Of a stretch of 53,894 nt of DNA, positions 20,056 to 35,493 are shown piece by piece. The position numbers and the translations under genes were made by a program. This DNA comes from Vulcanimicrobiota bacterium (GTDB lineage: Bacteria > Vulcanimicrobiota > Vulcanimicrobiia > Vulcanimicrobiales > Vulcanimicrobiaceae), in assembly GCA_019240755.1 (NCBI GenBank), contig JAFAXS010000084.1:1-53894 (forward strand), in the 5' to 3' direction. Within the stretch, counting starts at the first letter, position 1, and each line of letters begins with the position of its first letter. Under the pieces are notes generated by a model. It was not told the origin of the DNA and did no database searches. It saw nothing but the letters and a program-made list of their open reading frames with translations.

Positions 20056-21018
20056 ATGCGAACGGCTGTCGGCGTCGACTTGGGCGGCTCTCACGTCACC
20101 GCGGGGGTCGTCACGGACGACGGCACGATCCAGAGCCAACACGAAGAGGACCTCGACGACCTCACCTTCGGCGCGGTCATCGCGGCCCTCGAGACGGTGA
20201 TCAGGCCGGCGCTCAAAGATGCCGGGGGCGTGGTCGGCATCGGGATCGGCGCCCCGGGAAACATCGATGCCGCGACGGGCGCCGTGCTGTACAGCCCTAA
20301 CTTCGATTGGCACGATGCGCCGCTCGGCGACACGGTTCGGTCGAAGTTTTCGCTGCCGGTCTTCGTCGCCAACGACGCGCGCTGCGCGACGCTCGGCGAA
20401 TATACGTACGGCTCGGGCAAGCTCACCAAGGACTTCGTGCTGCTCACCTTGGGAACCGGAATTGGCGGAGGCATCGTGGCGCGAGGCGAGCTCTTATTGG
20501 GCAATCGCTGGGGAGCCGGTGAGATCGGGCACCACCAAATCCGTCCGGCCGACGGCTTTGTCTGCGGTTGCGGAAAGATCGGATGCTTCGAAGCGCAGGC
20601 ATCCGGCACGGGTCTGATTCGCCACGCATTCGCGGTGGCGCCGTCGTTCCCGCGCAGCGACCTGCTCGACGTACCGCGCTCGAAGCTCAGCTCAAAGAAG
20701 ATTCGGCGTGCCGCGCAAGCCGGCGATCTGCACGCGGTCGCGGCCTGGAAGAGTTTCACCGCCGATCTTGCGCTGGGGCTTGCGAACGTCATCGCGTTCG
20801 TGAACCCGGCGACGATTGCGCTGGGCGGCGGCGTCTCGACCGCAGGCGATTTCATGCTCGAGGCCGTGCGGCCGCGCGTTGAGGCGCTCACGACGATGAT
20901 TCCGCGAGGGACCACGAATATCGTCATTGCGGCCTTGGGTAATAATGCGGGACAAGTCGGCGCGGCGACGATGGTGCTGCGAGGAGGATTGACGACGGGC
21001 GATGCGCGCGCAGCGTAG
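20056..21018 (+). CDS. ROK-family sugar kinase, probable glucokinase
   Basis: A 320-residue ROK kinase. The phosphate loop is [14 protein letters not shown], the second motif is [11 protein letters not shown], and the catalytic Asp is in [13 protein letters not shown]. The ROK zinc site is present: GEIGHH, then [10 protein letters not shown]. The C-terminal LGGGVS loop completes the fold. This set is typical of bacterial ROK glucokinases, which phosphorylate glucose or related hexoses with ATP. The ATG at 20056 puts the phosphate loop at the N terminus. It overlaps the phosphoesterase gene by 17 bases. Confidence 0.9.
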
Positions 21019-22417
21019 ACCGGCATTCATCGGGTTGCTTGGGATACTGGCGGCGGCGGCGACGGCGACTGTCGCGGCGACGTCGCGTCCGCCGAGCGAC
21101 GATCCGATCCACAAGATTCGGCACGTGATCGTCATCATGCAAGAGAACCGGTCCTTCGATTCCTACTTCGGAACGTATCCCGGCGCCGACGGCATTCCGA
21201 TGCGCGACGGTCAGCCCACCGTCTGCCTTTCGGATCCGCAGCGCTCCGGATGCACGCGCCCGTTTCACGATTCGAACGATCTCAATCGCGGCGGCCCGCA
21301 CGGCGCCTGGGCCGCGACGATGGCCATAAACGGCGGAAAGATGGACGGATTCTTAGCCGCGGCCGAGCGAGGCCGGCGGCGCTGTGCCGATCTCAACGCG
21401 CCGAACTGCTTCGGCACGACCGAGATCATGGGATATCACGATTCGCGCGAGATTCCGAACTACTGGAAGTATGCCCACGATTTCGTGCTGCAGGATCACC
21501 TGTTCGAGCCGGTGGCGTCGTGGAGCTTGCCGCAGCATCTCTTCATGGTCTCGGGGTGGTCGGCGCAGTGCTCGACGCTCGGCGATCCAATGAGCTGCAC
21601 GAGCGCGATACAGCGCCCCGACTATCCTAAAGACTTCGAGCGCGGCAATGCGAGGGTCCACGAGCCGGGCCGCCCCGACTACGCGTGGACCGACCTCACG
21701 TATCTGCTTCACGCGAATCACGTCAGCTGGGCGTACTACGTAATGGCCGGAACGGAACCCGATTGCGCAAACAACTTGGATGCCTGTCCGCCGCGGCGAC
21801 TCGCGGCGCACACGCCCGGAATCTGGAACGTGCTGCCGTACTTCGATACGGTCAAGAAAGACGGCGAGCTAGGCAACGTCCGAGATCTGCGCGACTTTTA
21901 CCCGGCGGCCAAGAACGGAACGCTGCCCAGCGTCGTGTGGATCGCGCCGGCCGGAGACTATAGCGAGCATCCTCCGGCGCTGGTGAGCCGCGGTCAAGCC
22001 TACGTCACTGGGCTGATCAACGCGATCATGCGTGGCCCCGATTGGGACAGCACGGCCATCTTTCTGAGTTGGGACGACTGGGGCGGCTTTTACGACCACG
22101 TCGTACCGCCGCGCGTGGACGAGAACGGCTACGGACTGCGCGTGCCGGGTCTCGTGATCAGCCCGTACGCGCGCCACGGCTTCATCGATCATCAGACGCT
22201 TAGTCATGATGCCTATATGAAGTTTATCGAAGATGATTTTCTCGTTGGCCGGCGGATCGATCCGCGCAACGACGGGCGGCCCGATCGCCGTCCCAGCGTG
22301 CGCGAGGCGCAGCCGTTGTTGGGCGATCTACGCCGCGATTTCGACTTTGGTCAGCGACCGCGTCCGCCGGAAACGTTACCCGGAGGAACGGTCTGGAACG
22401 GGATCTCGGCGCAATAA
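21002..22417 (+). CDS. Secreted phosphoesterase (phospholipase C/AcpA family), paralogue 1
   Basis: A 471-residue member of the PF04185-type phosphoesterase family (phospholipase C and AcpA acid phosphatase). It has a plain signal peptide (residues 7-27, no lipobox). The metal-binding ENRSFD motif starts at residue 48, the candidate nucleophile serine is in WSLPQH, and the acidic metal loop is [11 protein letters not shown]. It is more diverged from the other five copies than they are from one another. It overlaps the ROK kinase gene by 17 bases and has GAGGAGG upstream. Likely substrates are phosphomonoesters or phospholipids outside the cytoplasm. Confidence 0.9.
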
Positions 22418-26482: not shown

Positions 26483-27614
26483 GCACGCGCTAGTCACCGG
26501 CGGCGCCGGATTCATCGGCTCGCACGTCGTCGATCTGCTGCTTGAGCGTGGCTACGAAGTCACGGTACTCGATAACCTGTTGCCGCAAGTGCATGCCGAT
26601 GCCGACCGCGATGCCGAGGGTTGGCCCACCTACCTCGACCGCCGCGCAAAGCGCATCAAGGGCGACATCCTTGACGCCGAGGTTTTCGAGTCGAGCTTGC
26701 GCGGCGTGACGCATCTCGTTCATCTGGCGGCGTCGGTCGGCGTCGGACAGAGCATGACGAACATCGTCGAGTACTGCCGCAACAACGTCATGACCGCCGC
26801 CGTGGTCTTGGAGACGCTCTCGCAGCGCCCGCACACGGTCGAGCGGATGGTGGTCGCGTCGTCGATGTCGATTTACGGCGAAGGGGCGTATAAGCTGCCG
26901 TCGACGGGAGCGCTCGTCGCCCCGCCGTTGCGCGAGCACGCCGCGCTTGCCGCGCGCCAATGGGAGCTGTCGCTGGGCGGCGAGCAACTGATTCCGGTCG
27001 CGACGGCCGAAGAGAAACCGTTGCAGCCGGCCTCGATCTACGCGATCAACAAGCGCGACCACGAAGAGATGTTCCTCGCGGTCGGCCGCGCCTTGCAGAT
27101 TCCGACGGTCGCCCTTCGCCTGTTCAACGTCTACGGCTCGCGCCAGGCGCTGAGCAATCCCTACACGGGGGTCGCCGCGATCTTCATCTCGCGCCTGCTG
27201 AACGACCAGCGGCCGCTGGTCTTCGAAGACGGCGAGCAGCAGCGCGACTTCGTGCACGTACAAGACATCGCAAACGCCTTCTTCACGGTGCTGGAGAGCG
27301 ATGCAGCGGTGTGGGATGCGTTCAACATCGGCAGCGGCAAGCCGGTGACGATCGCCCACATGGCGGTAACGCTCAACAAATTTCTCGACAAGAATATCGA
27401 GGCCGAATTCTTGGGCCGGTATCGCGTCGGAGACATTCGGCACTGCTTCCCCGATATCTCGAAGGCAGAAAGAACGTTCGGCTGGCGGCCGCAGCGTTCG
27501 TTCGACGAGGGGATGAAAGAACTCATCGCGTGGGTCTCGCAAACGAAAGCGCCGCCGGTGGATCGCAGTCAGACGAGCATGGCCGAACTCGAAACGAACA
27601 AGCTGCTCGTCTAA
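26475..27614 (+). CDS. NAD-dependent nucleotide-sugar epimerase (SDR)
   Basis: A 379-residue extended SDR with VTGGAGFIGSH at the N terminus, SSMSIYGEG as the catalytic Ser region and YAINKRDHE as YxxxK. It resembles dTDP-L-rhamnose or UDP-sugar 4-epimerases. In this operon a plausible substrate is UDP-xylose (giving UDP-arabinose) or UDP-glucuronate. The TTG at 26475 is preferred because AGAGAGG lies about nine bases upstream and the overlap with the GT2 stop is eight bases. An ATG at 26454 is in frame. Confidence 0.86.
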   Translation: MNKHALVTGGAGFIGSHVVDLLLERGYEVTVLDNLLPQVHADADRDAEGWPTYLDRRAKRIKGDILDAEVFESSLRGVTHLVHLAASVGVGQSMTNIVEYCRNNVMTAAVVLETLSQRPHTVERMVVASSMSIYGEGAYKLPSTGALVAPPLREHAALAARQWELSLGGEQLIPVATAEEKPLQPASIYAINKRDHEEMFLAVGRALQIPTVALRLFNVYGSRQALSNPYTGVAAIFISRLLNDQRPLVFEDGEQQRDFVHVQDIANAFFTVLESDAAVWDAFNIGSGKPVTIAHMAVTLNKFLDKNIEAEFLGRYRVGDIRHCFPDISKAERTFGWRPQRSFDEGMKELIAWVSQTKAPPVDRSQTSMAELETNKLLV

Positions 27615-27634
27615 TGAGTGGAAGGAGCGAAAAA

Positions 27635-28330
27635 GTGATTCGAGCGAAAATCGCGCTTGCCGCGACGATCGGCCTCTTCACGCTGAGCCTCTGTCCGGCG
27701 CTGGCGGACGATCGCGTCGGCGTGTTCGGCGGTGGCCAGGCAGACTTTTCGAACTACGTTTTCATCGGAGCGACCCTGGCCTTGAGCCCCAGCTTGGGTA
27801 ACGGCCTCGCCGTGCGGGGGATTCTCGATACCGGCGGCTACAACTACATCAATGACACCCTGGGAACCGTCAAAGCCAACTTCGGCGGTGGAGAGCTGGA
27901 TGCGCTCTACCAGTTCACCCATCAGAATTTCTGGAGCGACGTCGGCATCGGCGTCAACGACACGTACACGGGTCTCGCGCCGTACGATCCCACGAACCGC
28001 CGCCGTGGGCAGCAAGCCGAAGTGCGCCTCAGCCTGGATGGCGGAAACGTGTCGGGGCCATGGCGCGCCGATTGGAACGGCTTCTACGGAACGCGGCTCG
28101 ACGATTACGAAGGCCGCATCGGTCTGACTCACGCACTGTCGCCGCAGTTTCGCCTCGGCGCGGAGTTCTATGCCGAAGGCGATCCGACGTACAGCCTCTA
28201 TCAGGTGGGACCCGTGGCGGCCATAAAGATCGCCGACAAATCCGAGCTACAGTTCTCGGCCGGCCCATCCTGGGAGTCGGGCTTCGCGTCGCGCCCCTAC
28301 TTCAAAGCGCTGATCTACCAAAGCTTTTAG
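27635..28330 (+). CDS. BcsS-like outer-membrane beta-barrel protein
   Basis: A 231-residue exported protein: signal peptide ending near PALADD, then alternating beta strands ending in aromatic residues up to the C-terminal ALIYQSF, typical of a small outer-membrane barrel. The opening VGVFGGGQADFSNYVFIGA and the strand pattern resemble BcsS, a protein linked to cellulose secretion. The GTG at 27635 is chosen because AAGGAG lies eight bases upstream; an ATG at 27614 overlapping the epimerase stop is the alternative. It may be the export or anchoring component of the polysaccharide locus. Confidence 0.72.
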   Translation: MIRAKIALAATIGLFTLSLCPALADDRVGVFGGGQADFSNYVFIGATLALSPSLGNGLAVRGILDTGGYNYINDTLGTVKANFGGGELDALYQFTHQNFWSDVGIGVNDTYTGLAPYDPTNRRRGQQAEVRLSLDGGNVSGPWRADWNGFYGTRLDDYEGRIGLTHALSPQFRLGAEFYAEGDPTYSLYQVGPVAAIKIADKSELQFSAGPSWESGFASRPYFKALIYQSF

Positions 28331-28335
28331 GTTCC

Positions 28336-29496
28336 CTAGCGTCTCACGCGATTGCGCCAGAGCGCGTCGCGAAGCGCAAAGTACATCGGCTTCGGCTTCA
28401 TCTCCCAGTCGAGCGGGAGTCCGCGGTTCACCCCCGGACTCTCGCCATTTTTCCAGGCTCCCGGAAAGCGCGCGTAGTCTTGCGGCGTTACTTGGATGAT
28501 CCAGGAATGGCGATCGCTGAGGCCCCACGTGGTGACGCCCAAGCACCGGCTGTGACTCAAGACGGCGTCGAGGTATCGTCGCGTCTCGTCGGCGACCATC
28601 CGATCGCGCTCTTGCGCTGAGGCCGCATAGTTCGATTCCTTGACGTCCAACTCGGTGACGATCACCGGGAGCTTCATGTCGTTGAGCTCGCGCAGGAACG
28701 CGGCGATCGCCGGCGCCGAGATCTGACCCAGGCGCAAATCGAGATGGCCCTGCAAGCCGATGCAATCCAGTGGAACGCCGGCCGCCTTGAGACGCTCGAT
28801 CAGTTTGAGGAAATAGTAACGACGGGCGCGTTGCTCCGGATTGTCGTACTCGAGCCCGTACTCGCTGATCAGCAGCATGTCGTTGGGCGCAAGGCTGCGA
28901 GCGAGCGAGAACGCGCGATTGATGTAGCTTGGACCGAATGCCTGCAGGTAGATGCTGTTGCGCAGGCCGTCGCTGCGCTGCCCCGGATCGATGGCCTCGT
29001 TCACGACCGTCCACTGATGGATGAGCTCGCGATACCGATCCATGACGAAGCCGACGTAGTGAGTCACGAGCCCCCAATCGGGGCGCGCGCGCAGCATCTT
29101 GGTAGCCCAGTCCGGTACGCTCAAGTGCCAGAAGAGGACGTGGCCGCGCAGCTTCTTTCCCTGGTCGGTCGCAAAGTCTACGAGCGCATCAATGCGATCG
29201 AACGAGAGCTGACCGTATGCCGGTTCGATCTCGTTCCAGTTCATCTCGAACTCCGGAACGAGCAGCGAGCACTCGTGCACGATGGCCTGCCGATAGTCCG
29301 GCTCGGCTTCGACGTCGCGGATGCGTACGGCCGACCCATAGACGCGGCGGTTGTGCGCGGCCGCCTGGGCCAGGGTCGCGTGGCTCTCGGCTGACGCGTC
29401 GTAGGCCGCGGCGAGGAACGGGACGGCGCCGCCGGCCACCATCGTCGCGATGGCCCTGCGACGGCCGATGCTCTTTTTTGACGGTTGATGCTGCAC
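28336..29496 (-). CDS. Secreted endo-1,4-beta-xylanase, glycoside hydrolase family 10
   Basis: A GH10 TIM barrel of about 386 residues. The acid/base is Glu167 in VVNEAI, the nucleophile is Glu282 in VTELDV, and the substrate block RGHVLFWH is present. The N terminus has a twin-arginine-like signal (GRRRAIATMVAGG), so export by Tat is likely. The start is uncertain: GTG 29496 leaves room for a promoter, while ATG 29571 lies only 36 bases from the divergent gene. The gene converges on the BcsS-like gene. In cellulose loci a hydrolase (BcsZ) occupies this role, so this one may trim the polymer. Confidence 0.9.
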   Translation of the reverse strand: MQHQPSKKSIGRRRAIATMVAGGAVPFLAAAYDASAESHATLAQAAAHNRRVYGSAVRIRDVEAEPDYRQAIVHECSLLVPEFEMNWNEIEPAYGQLSFDRIDALVDFATDQGKKLRGHVLFWHLSVPDWATKMLRARPDWGLVTHYVGFVMDRYRELIHQWTVVNEAIDPGQRSDGLRNSIYLQAFGPSYINRAFSLARSLAPNDMLLISEYGLEYDNPEQRARRYYFLKLIERLKAAGVPLDCIGLQGHLDLRLGQISAPAIAAFLRELNDMKLPVIVTELDVKESNYAASAQERDRMVADETRRYLDAVLSHSRCLGVTTWGLSDRHSWIIQVTPQDYARFPGAWKNGESPGVNRGLPLDWEMKPKPMYFALRDALWRNRVRR

Positions 29497-29607
29497 TGCG
29501 CGCAAACGCTTGGCGCCGAACCTACAGATTCCCGCCCCCCCTAAAAACACGGGGAGCGCCGATCTCGGCATGGGAACGCGCCGCGTCGGGCTAACCGATG
29601 GGGCGCG

Positions 29608-31047
29608 ATGAGCTGCTTCCGGTATGCATTTGGAGCGTGGGCGTTGGCGCTTTTCCTGGTCGCGTGTAACGGCGGCGCGGCGCTTTCGCCCGGGCCCTCG
29701 TCCGGCATCGCCAATCCCGGCGCTTCGCGCTTGCCGCACCACGGTCGTACGGGCAGCCAACAGATACAGCACGTCGTCATCATCATGCAGGAAAACCGCA
29801 GCTTCAATAACCTGTTCATGAACTTTCCCGGCGCAACGACGGCCACGTACGGTTACGATCACAAGAATCGGAAGATAGCGCTCAGACCGGTCAGTCTTTC
29901 TACGGCGTGGGACCTCGCCCATAACTCCCAGGGATTCTATTCGGCCTGCAACGGCACCGGCAGTATCCCGGGCACCAACTGCCAGATGAACGGCTTCGAT
30001 CGGGAGCCGGTGACCTGCGGGAACGCGTCGCAGCCGGTTTGCCCGGTCAAACATCCGCAGTACATCTATGCTCCCCGCAGCGAGACGGCGCCGTACTGGA
30101 GCATGGCAAAACAGTACGTGTTGGCCGATCAGATGTTCGCGTCGAACTTCGATGCGAGCAGCTACGTTTCGCATCAGTACATCATCGCGGGGCAGGCCGG
30201 TTCCACCCTCAACTATCCGTTGACCTGGTGGGGCTGCCCCGGTGGCTCAACCGACACGGTCCTCACGGTCGCTCAAAGTCCGCCGCGCGGTTACGGTCCG
30301 CGGGTGACCGATTGCTTCGACTATACGACCCTCGGCGACGAGCTGGACGCCGCCGGCGTCACGTGGGCGTACTATGCCGCTCCGGTCGGCAAAGGCGGCA
30401 GCCCGTGCGGTCAGGGAGCGCACGGCATCGGCCCCGGTTACGTGGACGGTAACGGCATTTGGAGCGCGTACCAGGCGGTCAAGCACATCTGCTACGGCCC
30501 CGATTGGAACAATGACGTCATCACTCCGCAGACCAATTTCCTGAGTGACGTTACGGCCGGAAAACTGCGAGGCGTCAGTTGGATCGTGCCCACCTGCGCA
30601 AACTCCGACCATCCGGGCTGCAGCTCTAGCACGGGACCATCCTGGGTCGCATCGCTCGTCAACGCGGTCGGAGAATCACAGTATTGGGATTCGACCGCCA
30701 TCTTCATCATGTGGGACGACTATGGCGGCTTATACGATCCCGTCGCGCCGCAGTATCTCGACTACGACGGGCTTGGACTCCGCGTTCCGCTGATCGTGGT
30801 TTCGGCGTACGCTAAACAGGCCTATGTTTCCCACATTGTGTACGAGCACGGCAGCGTCTTGAAATTCGTCGAGGCTCGCTTCGGCCTGGCGCCGTTAGCG
30901 GCAAGCGACGCGCGGGCGAATTCCCCTGCGCAAGACTGCTTCGACTTTTCGCAGTCGCCACGGAAGTTCGTCCCCATCAAAGCGCCGTACGGCGAGGGGT
31001 TCTTCATTCGTCAACGCCTGGACAGACGACCGCCCGACGCGGGCTAG
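29608..31047 (+). CDS. Phosphoesterase lipoprotein (PLC/AcpA family), paralogue 2
   Basis: A 479-residue lipoprotein with lipobox LVAC (cysteine 20). The metal motif is ENRSFN from residue 62. The candidate nucleophile serine lies in ASSYVSHQ, and the acidic site is MWDDYGGLYD near the C terminus. SDHPG is a further conserved metal-site block. It is the first of four tandem copies. The ATG at 29608 leads directly into the signal peptide. Expected activity is hydrolysis of phosphomonoesters or phospholipids at the cell surface or in the periplasm. Confidence 0.9.
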   Translation: MSCFRYAFGAWALALFLVACNGGAALSPGPSSGIANPGASRLPHHGRTGSQQIQHVVIIMQENRSFNNLFMNFPGATTATYGYDHKNRKIALRPVSLSTAWDLAHNSQGFYSACNGTGSIPGTNCQMNGFDREPVTCGNASQPVCPVKHPQYIYAPRSETAPYWSMAKQYVLADQMFASNFDASSYVSHQYIIAGQAGSTLNYPLTWWGCPGGSTDTVLTVAQSPPRGYGPRVTDCFDYTTLGDELDAAGVTWAYYAAPVGKGGSPCGQGAHGIGPGYVDGNGIWSAYQAVKHICYGPDWNNDVITPQTNFLSDVTAGKLRGVSWIVPTCANSDHPGCSSSTGPSWVASLVNAVGESQYWDSTAIFIMWDDYGGLYDPVAPQYLDYDGLGLRVPLIVVSAYAKQAYVSHIVYEHGSVLKFVEARFGLAPLAASDARANSPAQDCFDFSQSPRKFVPIKAPYGEGFFIRQRLDRRPPDAG

Positions 31048-31050
31048 AAT
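31019..31050 (+). promoter_or_regulatory. Possible promoter for the structured leader
   Basis: TGGACA (31019-31024) and TAGAAT (31045-31050) each match a sigma70 box at five of six bases. The spacer is 20 bases, longer than ideal, so the call is weak. Transcription would start near 31057, just before the structured leader. Confidence 0.3.
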
Positions 31051-31067
31051 GGCGATGACTGTTGTTA

Positions 31068-31157
31068 ACAAAAAGCCGTGCCGGCATGAAAACCAGCCGT
31101 GGCAGTCAAAACGGTTAGGCCTGGTGCTTTAATGGCAACGGCTCGGCCGCTTTTTGT
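31068..31157 (+). ncRNA. Riboswitch-like structured leader upstream of phosphoesterase paralogue 3
   Basis: Two mutually exclusive foldings can be drawn. In one, 31074-31082 pairs with 31134-31143 (nine base pairs, one bulge), closing a long hairpin (31084-31086 with 31125-31127, 31093-31096 with 31121-31124, 31097-31100 with 31111-31114). In the other, CGGC/GCCG (31139-31149) forms a short hairpin before TTTTT, like a terminator. In addition ACAAAAAGC (31068-31076) can pair with GCTTTTTGT (31149-31157) and hide the T run. This aptamer-plus-switch layout is typical of riboswitches. It matches no class I recognise. Confidence 0.45.
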
Positions 31158-31203
31158 AAAGCGCGCAATCTAAACCGCTTCTCCGACGTTACTAAGGAAG
31201 TGT

Positions 31204-32601
31204 ATGTTGTACTCTCGATTTGCACTCGGCTTCTTCGGAATGACGCTTTTTTTCACCGGCTGTAACGGCGGCAGCGCGGTTCCTTCGCCCGGAGCGCAGT
31301 CCTTCGTCTCCAGTCCGGGGGATATTGCGCAGTCCCTCGATATCGATGCCAAGGCAAAGCAGAAGATCAAGCACGTTATCATCATCGTTCAAGAGAACCG
31401 GAGCCTCAACAACCTGTTCATGGGGTATCCGGGCGCGAAGACGGTGACGTATGGATACGACAGCAAGAACAAAAGGGTGCCGCTCAAGCCGATCGCGTTG
31501 GAAACGAGATGGGACTTAGCTCACAACGCGTCGGGCGTCCTCAAGGCGTGCCACGGCACCGGCAGCATTCCGGGGACCAACTGCCGCATGAACGGCTTCG
31601 ATCAAGAGGCAGTCGTGCTCTGTGGCGGCGCCGGCCAACCGAAGTGCCCGAAGGATCACCCGCAGTACGCGTACGTGCCGCGTACGGAGACCGAGCCGTA
31701 CTTCGACATGGCGAAGAACTTCGTGTTGGCCGACGAGATGTATTCTTCGGACTGGGACGCCAGCAGTTTCGTCTCTCACCAATACATCATTGCCGCTCAA
31801 GCCAAATCGTCGGTTGACTACCCCGACATCAACTTGCAGTGGGGCTGCCCCGGTGGCCGCACCGACAAGATCGGCATCCTTGCAAAGAACCGCACCTTCC
31901 CGCACGGGCATGAGGTAGTTTGCTGGGACGTTCCGACCCTCGGCGACGAACTGGACGCGGCCGGCTTGCCGTGGGCGTACTACGCCTCGGCGATCAATGG
32001 GGATGGCGGCATCTGGAGCGCCTATCAAACCATCAAGCACATTTACAAGGGGCCCGACTGGGCCCAAGACGTGATTTCGCCGCAAACCCAATTCTTCAGC
32101 GACGTGAAGAACGGCAACTTACGCTCGGTGAGTTGGATCACGCCCACATTTGAAAACTCCGACCACGCCGGTTCGGGATCCAACACGGGACCGTCGTGGG
32201 TTGCGTCGCTGGTCAATGCGGTCGGAAAGTCGCAGTACTGGGACTCGTCGGCGATCTTTGTCTTCTGGGACGACTACGGCGGCTGGTACGACTCCAGGCC
32301 CCCTGCGTACAAGGATTACGACGGTCTAGGCTTCAGGCTGCCGCTGTTGATCGTTTCGCCGTACGCGAAGCGTGGGTGGGTCTCGCACGTCCAGTACGAG
32401 CACGGCAGCATCTTGCGATTCATCGAAGATCAGTTTGGCCTCTCCTCGCTGTCGGTAAGCGATGCGCGCGCGACGTCGCCTCAAAAGGATTGCTTCGATT
32501 TTTCGAAGCCGGCGCGAGCCTTCGTCCCCATCAAGTCGCCCATGGATGAAAACTTCTTCTTGCATCAGCCACCCGACGGGCGGTTACCCGACTCGGATTA
32601 G
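31204..32601 (+). CDS. Phosphoesterase lipoprotein (PLC/AcpA family), paralogue 3
   Basis: A 465-residue copy with lipobox FTGC (cysteine 20) and ENRSLN from residue 64. The SSFVSHQ serine region and FWDDYGGWYDS acidic site are intact, so it should be active. It is slightly shorter than its neighbours because the loop before GIWSAYQ is reduced. AAGGAAG lies upstream of the ATG. It is the only array member with a substantial 5' gap (156 bases), which holds the structured leader, so it may head its own transcript with paralogues 4 and 5. Confidence 0.9.
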   Translation: MLYSRFALGFFGMTLFFTGCNGGSAVPSPGAQSFVSSPGDIAQSLDIDAKAKQKIKHVIIIVQENRSLNNLFMGYPGAKTVTYGYDSKNKRVPLKPIALETRWDLAHNASGVLKACHGTGSIPGTNCRMNGFDQEAVVLCGGAGQPKCPKDHPQYAYVPRTETEPYFDMAKNFVLADEMYSSDWDASSFVSHQYIIAAQAKSSVDYPDINLQWGCPGGRTDKIGILAKNRTFPHGHEVVCWDVPTLGDELDAAGLPWAYYASAINGDGGIWSAYQTIKHIYKGPDWAQDVISPQTQFFSDVKNGNLRSVSWITPTFENSDHAGSGSNTGPSWVASLVNAVGKSQYWDSSAIFVFWDDYGGWYDSRPPAYKDYDGLGFRLPLLIVSPYAKRGWVSHVQYEHGSILRFIEDQFGLSSLSVSDARATSPQKDCFDFSKPARAFVPIKSPMDENFFLHQPPDGRLPDSD

Positions 32602-32624: not shown

Positions 32625-34064
32625 ATGTTGAAATATTTGAATGGCGGGATCGCGTCCGCGCTGCTCGTCGCCCTCTGCGCGTGCGGGGGCAACGGATCGC
32701 TTTCCGTGCAGCCGCCGCTTCCCGGGCTCTCCGGCTCGCTCGATACGGGTGCCGGCGTCGACGTAAAAGCATCGAAGCGCATCAAGCACGTTATCATCGT
32801 CATTCAGGAAAACCGAAGCTTTAACAATCTCTTCGCAGGCTATCCGGGCGCAACGACGTCCCTGTTCGGATACAACACCAAAAAGAAGAAGATTGCCCTC
32901 CAGCCGGTGCCGCTCGAGACGACCTGGGATCTCCAGCACACCGCCAAAGGCTTTTTGGTGTCCTGCAACGGCACGGGAAAAATTCCGGGAACGAACTGCC
33001 GCATGAACGGCTTCGACCTTCAGACTTGGACGTGCGACAAGGCAGGCCAACCGAGGTGTCCCAACGAGAATCCGCCGTACAGCTACGTGCCGCACAGCGA
33101 GATCAAACCATACTTCAATATGGCGCGTCAGTACGTTCTGGCCGATCACATGTTCGCGTCGGATTTCGATACGAGCAGCTTCATCTCGCATCAGTACATG
33201 ATCGCAGGCGTGAATCCAAACTCATCGGCAAACTATCCCGACACTGCGTGGGGCTGCCCCGGCGGCTCGACCGATCGGATAGACAAACTCGGCAACGGCA
33301 GGAAGATATCGCACGTCCCCAAGCTCATTCCGTGCTGGGATCCTCCGACGCTTGCGGACGAACTCGATCAGAAAGGCCTCTCGTGGTCGTTCTATGCGCA
33401 GCCCGTGAAGGCGGACGGCGGCGAGGCGTGCGGCACCGGCCTGACGCCCGACGCTTCCAAGGGCAGGAGCGGAATTTGGAGCGCGTACCAGGCCATAAAG
33501 CACATCTGCCACGGACCGGACTGGAACCAGCACGTATTCTCGCCCTCGAGCCAATTCTTCACGGACATCGGCAACGGCAATCTTTCCGCGGTAACGTGGA
33601 TCACGCCGACGTACGCCAACTCCGACCACGGAGGCTCCGGCTCGAAGACGGGGCCATCCTGGGTGACGGCGATCGTCAATGCCGTCGGAAAGTCGGCGTT
33701 CTGGGATACGAGCGCGATCTTCGTTCTCTGGGACGACTCCGGCGGTTGGTACGATCCCATCGCGCCGCCGTATGTCGACAACGACGGCTTTGGCTTCCGC
33801 CTTCCCCTGCTGATCGTCTCGCCGTACGCGCGGCAGGGGCGCGTTTCGCACGTCGTTTACGAGCATGGCAGCATCTTGAAGTTCACCGAAGACGTGTTCG
33901 GATTGGGGCGGCTCTCCGCGAGCGACACTCGTGCCAAGACGCCCGCGATCGATTGCTTCGATTTCAATCAAAAACCGCGTCCGTTTACCCCGATCAAGGC
34001 GGACTACGATCAAAGCTACTTTATGGCTCAACCGCTCGACACGAGGCCTCCCGACAATGAATAA
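32625..34064 (+). CDS. Phosphoesterase lipoprotein (PLC/AcpA family), paralogue 4
   Basis: A 479-residue copy with lipobox LCAC (cysteine 20) and ENRSFN from residue 62. The serine region is SSFISHQ and the acidic site LWDDSGGWYD, where serine replaces the tyrosine seen in the other copies. SDHGG replaces the SDHPG/SDHAG of the relatives. GGAG precedes the ATG by about nine bases, and only 23 bases separate it from paralogue 3. Its stop overlaps the next gene by eight bases. Confidence 0.9.
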   Translation: MLKYLNGGIASALLVALCACGGNGSLSVQPPLPGLSGSLDTGAGVDVKASKRIKHVIIVIQENRSFNNLFAGYPGATTSLFGYNTKKKKIALQPVPLETTWDLQHTAKGFLVSCNGTGKIPGTNCRMNGFDLQTWTCDKAGQPRCPNENPPYSYVPHSEIKPYFNMARQYVLADHMFASDFDTSSFISHQYMIAGVNPNSSANYPDTAWGCPGGSTDRIDKLGNGRKISHVPKLIPCWDPPTLADELDQKGLSWSFYAQPVKADGGEACGTGLTPDASKGRSGIWSAYQAIKHICHGPDWNQHVFSPSSQFFTDIGNGNLSAVTWITPTYANSDHGGSGSKTGPSWVTAIVNAVGKSAFWDTSAIFVLWDDSGGWYDPIAPPYVDNDGFGFRLPLLIVSPYARQGRVSHVVYEHGSILKFTEDVFGLGRLSASDTRAKTPAIDCFDFNQKPRPFTPIKADYDQSYFMAQPLDTRPPDNE

Positions 34065-35493
34065 TCGGCTATCGGGCGGCATCGCTGCCGGCCCCATATT
34101 TGCCGCTGCGTTGCTGACCGGCTGTCATGGCGGCGCCACGCCGGAACTTCCGCTACAGGGCAACGCCTCGGCGGCGAACGGCATCGCCCAGCCCGCCGGC
34201 CTGAGCAAGATAAAGCACGTTGTCATCATCGTGCAGGAGAACCGCAGCCTGAACAATCTCTTCATGGGCTTTCCCCGCGCGCATACGTCGTCGTACGGCT
34301 TCGACAGCAAGAAGAGAAAGGTCACGCTGAAGCCGATCGGCCTCTCGACCTCCTGGGATTTGGCGCACAACTCAGACGGCTATTACGCGGCCTGCAACGG
34401 CGTCGGCAGCATCCCGGGCACCGACTGCACGATGAACGGATTCGACCGCGAGTCCTGGCAGTGCGGAAAGGGCGGGTTTCCCCGATGCCCCATCAAGTAT
34501 CCGCCCTATAGCTACGTTCCAAGGACCGAGATCAAGCCGTACTGGGATATCGCCAAGCAATACGTGTTGGCCGACAAGATGTTTGCGTCGAATTTCGATG
34601 CGAGCAGCTACGTGTCGCATCAATACATCATCGCGGCTCAGGCGGCTGCGACGACGAACTATCCGCTGACGTTTTGGGGCTGCCCCGGCGGCAAGACAGA
34701 CACAATCGGCACGCTCTCACCATTCCGCGGACCGCAAAAACGCGTGCCGGTCTGTTTCGACTACCAGACGCTCGGTGACGAACTCGATGCTGCCGGCATC
34801 TCGTGGGCGTACTACGCCGCGCCCGTGGGGAAAGCGCCCTCGCCGTGCGGCCAATCGCACGATGACATGGCGCCGCCGCCGGTCTCCGGGCAGAATAACG
34901 GGATCTGGAGCGCCTACCAAGCCGTCCGGCATATCTGTTACGGGCCGGACTGGGCCAAAGACGTCATCTCTCCGCAGACGCAGTTCTTCACCGACGTGAA
35001 AGACGGCAACCTGCGCAGCGTGAACTGGATCGTTCCGACCTGCGTCAATTCCGACCACGCGGGATGCAACTCCGATACAGGACCCTCGTGGGTCGCGTCG
35101 TTGGTCAACGCAGTGGGCGAATCGAAGTACTGGAATTCCACCGCGATACTGATCTTCTGGGACGACTACGGCGGCTGGTACGACGCCGTTCCGCCTCCCT
35201 TCGTCGATTACGACGGCTTGGGCATTCGGGTGCCGTTGCTTGTCGTCTCGCCGTACGCCAAGAAGGGGTTCGTTTCGCACGCGCGCTACGAGCACGGCAG
35301 CATCTTACGTTTCGTGGAGGATCGTTTCGGCGTCAGGCCGCTGTCGGCGAGCGATCAGCGTTCGACCTCACTCGCGACGGATTGCTTCGACTTTTCGCGC
35401 CGCGCGCGTACGTTCGTGCCGATCAGGGCCAAGTATGGCGAGAGCTACTTTATGCACCAACCCCTGGATCGGCGACCGCCGGATACGGACTAA
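34057..35493 (+). CDS. Phosphoesterase lipoprotein (PLC/AcpA family), paralogue 5
   Basis: A 478-residue copy with lipobox LTGC (cysteine 23) and ENRSLN from residue 61, serine region SSYVSHQ and acidic site FWDDYGGWYD. The start at 34057 is chosen because it gives a normal lipoprotein signal and overlaps the previous stop by eight bases; the frame is open further upstream but only inside paralogue 4. The overlap means it is co-translated with paralogue 4. It ends 10 bases before the convergent GloVer-repeat gene. Confidence 0.9.
   Translation: MNNRLSGGIAAGPIFAAALLTGCHGGATPELPLQGNASAANGIAQPAGLSKIKHVVIIVQENRSLNNLFMGFPRAHTSSYGFDSKKRKVTLKPIGLSTSWDLAHNSDGYYAACNGVGSIPGTDCTMNGFDRESWQCGKGGFPRCPIKYPPYSYVPRTEIKPYWDIAKQYVLADKMFASNFDASSYVSHQYIIAAQAAATTNYPLTFWGCPGGKTDTIGTLSPFRGPQKRVPVCFDYQTLGDELDAAGISWAYYAAPVGKAPSPCGQSHDDMAPPPVSGQNNGIWSAYQAVRHICYGPDWAKDVISPQTQFFTDVKDGNLRSVNWIVPTCVNSDHAGCNSDTGPSWVASLVNAVGESKYWNSTAILIFWDDYGGWYDAVPPPFVDYDGLGIRVPLLVVSPYAKKGFVSHARYEHGSILRFVEDRFGVRPLSASDQRSTSLATDCFDFSRRARTFVPIRAKYGESYFMHQPLDRRPPDTD

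Follow-up and report, generated by a model that had tools for sequence, protein, structure and literature searches.

A candidate structured 5′ leader of a phosphoesterase operon in a small Eremiobacterota lineage

In the window, as we call the whole 53,894-nucleotide stretch of DNA analyzed here, four adjacent phosphoesterase genes (PE1 to PE4) are arranged head to tail. Our preferred explanation for the sequence preceding PE2, held with about even confidence, is that it serves the operon starting with PE2 as a structured 5′ leader restricted to a small Eremiobacterota lineage. The changes between the two full copies of this leader fit a predicted fold of three helices, P1, P2 and P3, with the joiner ATGAAAA, and the element stands before PE2 in both species. 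The evidence comes from these two and from a further copy that is weak and partial, and a riboswitch cannot be established from two or three sequences.

28336–29493, − strand: GH10 gene, divergent from the phosphoesterase array (Pfam, E 2.5e-67)
29608–31047, + strand: PE1, PF04185 phosphoesterase (Pfam, E 1.3e-51)
31048–31203, + strand: leader, the whole PE1–PE2 gap of 156 nt (from comparison with G012, see below)
31194–31198, + strand: Shine-Dalgarno-like AAGGA of PE2 (from sequence; GAGGAG is its counterpart in G012)
31204–32601, + strand: PE2, PF04185 phosphoesterase (Pfam, E 4.7e-46) with a lipoprotein-like N-terminus (the lipobox is our own reading)
32625–34064, + strand: PE3, PF04185 (Pfam match)
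34057–35493, + strand: PE4, PF04185 (Pfam match)

The initial annotation had singled out this gap as the only sizeable one in the array and as AT-richer than its surroundings, and both observations hold: the other gaps measure 23 and −8 nt, and the GC content is 0.51 versus 0.63 for the window. Its designation of the downstream gene as the third paralogue is valid if a distant open reading frame (21002–22417; 28% identity) is counted, but within the adjacent array the gene is the second. The gene behind GH10 (26960–28330) has a match to PF17036 (cellulose biosynthesis protein BcsS).

By itself, the window copy of the gap is unremarkable, and support for the leader derives from comparison. The motifs first described in the gap are all present, namely a nine-pair helix (AGCCGTGCC from 31074 with GGCAACGGCT from 31134, one A being bulged), a small GC hairpin CGGC-TCG-GCCG (31139–31149) followed by T5 at 31151–31155, and a perfect 9-nt inverted repeat (ACAAAAAGC at 31068–31076 and GCTTTTTGT at 31149–31157). 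The terminator stem is, as had been acknowledged, four pairs long. For the window copy alone, a 9-nt inverted repeat arose in 94 of 2000 shuffles, and the four-pair GC hairpin with T5 was rarer (11 of 2000). Of 200 dinucleotide shuffles of the whole gap in this copy, 77 folded as well as the original (z −0.27), which is chance level, and P2 in the same copy gave a p of 0.14 versus shuffles.

A homologous leader was identified in G012, a genome of the same genus (contig JAFAQW010000088.1). There, a GH10 gene in reverse orientation (85% identity to that of the window) is followed by the leader and by a PE2 orthologue (72% identity over the 296 residues that the contig covers), and PE1 is absent. 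The G012 leader (L067:2339–2485) is identical to the window gap in 102 of 142 aligned columns (72%), and the alignment score was 36, while shuffled leaders reached at most 6.5 (n = 300). Between the two genomes, 40% of 92 fourfold-degenerate sites in PE2 and 54% of 175 in GH10 are identical, a comparison that somewhat favours the leader because its alignment was optimised with gaps. Since leader identity exceeds that at fourfold sites and the score lies far above that of shuffles, we conclude that the leader is constrained non-coding DNA. In a leader-peptide test uncorrected for the 72% identity of the nucleotides, the best frame pair lay on the minus strand and scored 32, the 95% point of the shuffles being 30; several of the indels between the two leaders are not multiples of three, and beyond this borderline minus-strand score there is no coding signal. 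The position of the window leader directly behind PE1 would suit an intercistronic spacer that carries an mRNA-stability or processing hairpin or an end signal for PE1. However, G012 has the leader with no phosphoesterase gene upstream, which makes it a 5′ leader belonging to PE2 and speaks against a spacer behind PE1; we rate the spacer as very unlikely.

The consensus fold was derived from a structure-blind pairwise alignment of the window and G012 leaders, and its elements are given below with window coordinates.

31074–31078, + strand: P1 5′ strand, AGCCG, unchanged in G012
31086–31092, + strand: joiner ATGAAAA, conserved and predicted to be unpaired, identical in G012 at 7 of 7 positions
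31096–31120, + strand: P2, central bulged hairpin with nine pairs scored (six the same, two changed on one side, one on both sides, none broken)
31125–31137, + strand: P3, hairpin UGCU-UUAAU-GGCA, with a compensatory change from U-A to C-G in G012
31139–31143, + strand: P1 3′ strand, CGGCT, which is also the 5′ part of the competing hairpins
31133–31152, + strand: most conserved 20-column block of the window/G012 alignment (17 of 20), TGGCAACGGCTCGGCCGCTT

On the + strand, the consensus fold of the P1 domain, whose limits were trimmed by eye before the scan described next, had a z of −3.64, with 2 of 1000 column shuffles as good; the − strand was also below shuffles (z −2.93; 8 of 1000), and the fold of the whole leader was weaker (z −1.96; 35 of 1000). 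When eleven 76-column segments were scanned, two on the + strand had no shuffle as good among 200: the one beginning at 31071, which is the P1 domain (z −3.28), and another from 31107 (z −3.48). The + strand z was lower than that of the − strand in 11 of 11. Among the 18 scored pairs, 14 are unchanged, two carry consistent one-sided changes, two are changed on both sides and none is broken, a count that concerns two sequences and holds in all 288 co-optimal alignments. Paired positions are identical at 30 of 36 and unpaired ones at 18 of 34. The + strand was lower in energy in all five sequences tested (P2 in three copies and the whole domain in two). Swapping hairpin halves among the three copies showed that a half folds best with its own partner in 5 of 6 row and column comparisons; only for the G012 3′ half was another partner, the 5′ half of the copy before PE1, the better one. 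A covariance model (R1) was built from a MAFFT alignment that misplaced the P1 5′ strand of G012, and it is weaker for P1; because re-alignment with R1 left the G012 P1 misplaced, pairs were counted on the structure-blind pairwise alignment.

The third sequence lies before PE1.

29555–29607, + strand: degenerate partial leader copy comprising the joiner and a P2 hairpin (29577–29607), recognized from R1, similarity, position and the hairpin

The best further R1 match in the window was 29555–29630, with 18.1 bits and an E of 0.41 over 23 sources; in an unfiltered R1 search the same segment ranked second of 59 (E 0.078). Compared with the G012 leader, 46 of 3000 shuffles and 7 of 1844 other 58-mers of the window were as similar as this segment; compared with the window leader, 11 of 3000 and 10 of 1844 were. 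The hairpin at 29577–29607 had a z of −5.22, with none of 2000 shuffles as good, and ends exactly at the PE1 start codon. Joiner and strong hairpin are kept, and P3 and the P1 3′ strand are missing. Stricter local scoring did not reveal this copy, its best PE1 match being the GH10-side promoter block. When the upstream regions of other phosphoesterase genes were compared with the G012 leader, none was prominent; the best of them scored 15.5, equal to the region upstream of PE1 in that comparison. Taken together, R1, the looser scoring, the position and the strong hairpin indicate that 29555–29607 is probably a partial leader copy. Within 29577–29610, PE1 bears a 12-pair hairpin that ends at its start codon, and a clear Shine-Dalgarno sequence is lacking. 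PE1 is closest to PE4 (65% identity) and not to its neighbour PE2 (58%), which suggests rearrangement within the array; a tandem duplication of leader and gene is, given these identities, unsupported as stated.

The main rival to a structured leader is that the conserved stretch is a protein-bound DNA promoter or operator for PE2 (and, via 29555–29607, for PE1), its hairpins being incidental inverted repeats. From CGGSATG through P2 the three copies align free of indels, as would be expected of fixed promoter spacing, the copy before PE1 stops exactly at the start codon, and other arrays of the genus have a DNA-like control element ahead of their first gene, seen in 9 of 29 upstream regions. 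By contrast, the G-U pairs and the consistent advantage of the + strand favour RNA, a sigma-70-type site was found in neither leader, and the GGGA-N17/18-GTAA element of the other arrays is absent at PE1 and PE2. We regard a promoter or operator as unlikely, with a structured RNA leader as the preferred reading.

The initial annotation had envisaged a switch in which the GC hairpin and T5 compete with the nine-pair helix, while the inverted repeat hides the T run. At the position of the T run, G012 has CTTGGTGGG, and it lacks the 9-nt repeat; for its upper three pairs, moreover, the nine-pair helix draws on bases placed in P3 by the consensus of the two species. With T5 and the repeat absent from G012 and the upper pairs assigned to P3, a terminator is not supported as the conserved mechanism. 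An intrinsic terminator with a stem of at least five pairs and a conserved U tract was not found at the site, the stem having four pairs and G012 having no T run; likewise, a terminator scan detected none on the + strand there, and its single prediction, on the − strand, is no more than chance would give. The original proposal, an attenuator of transcription or a riboswitch that works through the T5 terminator, is very unlikely in view of these differences in G012, the short stem and the scan, even though the nine-pair helix, the competing GC hairpin and T5 all occur in the window and the hairpin with T5 arises in so few shuffles. What stands of the structured, riboswitch-like leader originally proposed is a conserved fold with limited compensatory change, without the terminator switch.

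A different competition is suggested by the 3′-part consensus fold of both species.

31139–31165, + strand: candidate alternative hairpin excluding P1, pairing 31139–31145 with 31155–31165

The G012 version of this alternative helix is stronger than that of the window, and the predicted folds make competition of the P1 3′ strand with the downstream segment possible in both species. In the proposed mechanism, the leader would be transcribed and would act in cis on the nascent mRNA through its folding. The P1 3′ strand, CGGCU, could either close the three-helix domain or pair with the downstream segment, and the exchange of helices might alter access to the translation start or the fate of the transcript; the T5 terminator would be no part of the conserved mechanism. 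Candidate triggers include a metabolite, a protein and temperature, or the fold may simply protect the mRNA. A hairpin can be drawn around the Shine-Dalgarno region in both species, but with p values of 0.18 and 0.35 it does not exceed chance. It is quite unlikely, in our estimate, that the leader represents a rare new class of ligand- or signal-sensing mRNA leaders in one Eremiobacterota lineage, in which a translational switch between P1 and the downstream helix would control a secreted phosphoesterase operon in response to, for example, phosphate or a phosphoester product.

Database searches agreed with the initial view that the element fits no known riboswitch class, Rfam holding no relevant match to the window or to the G012 leader. 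At the gathering threshold, Rfam release 15 gave no match in the window; with the limit raised to E 10, the region 30950–31300 gave four unrelated matches at chance level (best E 0.65) and the G012 leader a single one (E 0.39). A DNA search with the window leader in 98 genomes returned, besides itself, short chance matches, and missed the G012 leader at E ≤ 1. Conversely, the other matches listed for the G012 leader in 18 genomes of the genus were short, the nine inspected were not leader-like, and the window PE2 leader was absent among the matches listed. A scan of genome contigs anchored on GH10 yielded four loci, one being the G012 contig. An exact pattern matched G012 alone in 149 genomes because the window departs from the stricter GATGAAAA form, and a looser pattern in 98 genomes produced many matches, by eye mostly gene starts or interiors. 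Searching 149 genomes of the phylum with R1 recovered the two training copies and seven weak matches (best E 0.026), under filters strict enough to drop the partial copy before PE1 as well, so that weak relatives would escape. The best of the weak matches was rejected as a third leader, as it falls inside a long open reading frame. Among the genomes searched, the full leader is confined to the window genome and G012, with no credible third species. No paper was retrieved for Eremiobacterota together with riboswitches or with phosphoesterases, and the titles and abstract openings retrieved for wider topics did not mention the leader.

Three-helix-junction riboswitches include the purine, TPP and c-di-GMP-I types. 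The PE2 leader is like them in that P1 would close a junction of two hairpins, the unpaired joiner is conserved, the element lies 5′ of an operon, and a downstream competing helix is possible; it differs in having no Rfam match at the gathering threshold and in being known from two species, a comparison made with the types as a group. To our knowledge, its joiner and loops resemble no riboswitch class. With intrinsic-terminator attenuators, the window copy of the leader shares a GC hairpin that runs into T5, but it differs from them in its four-pair stem and in that hairpin and T5 are not conserved in the relative. Like other structured leaders that are rare, limited to particular lineages and identified by comparing intergenic regions (PMC8632094, PMC11109978), the PE2 leader is structured, conserved, short and in cis to a gene family, whereas its phylogenetic support is much smaller.

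PF04185 phosphoesterase families are large in these genomes, and their control appears unstudied in the portions of the literature covered by our search. A leader at one array and a different, DNA-like element at many may offer an entry to the control of phosphoesterase secretion, and perhaps of phosphorus acquisition, in uncultured members of this phylum. In 9 of 29 phosphoesterase upstream regions, a shared palindrome, TGAYG-n-ACGTCA, is followed by GGGA-N17/18-GTAA.

L070, L072, L073, L074, L075, L078, L080, L083 and L084, upstream of the first array gene: palindrome with the GGGA-N17/18-GTAA element

GGGA-N17/18-GTAA occurred in 10 of the 29 regions, versus 0.135 expected per shuffled set, and the combined element, which resembles an extracytoplasmic-function sigma promoter, was absent before PE1, before PE2 and in G012. 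Several of the upstream regions bearing it lie, by eye, behind an apparent histidine-kinase C-terminus. The PF04185 expansion amounts to at least 27 to 34 matches in most genomes of the genus (27 candidates scored in each), G000 included.
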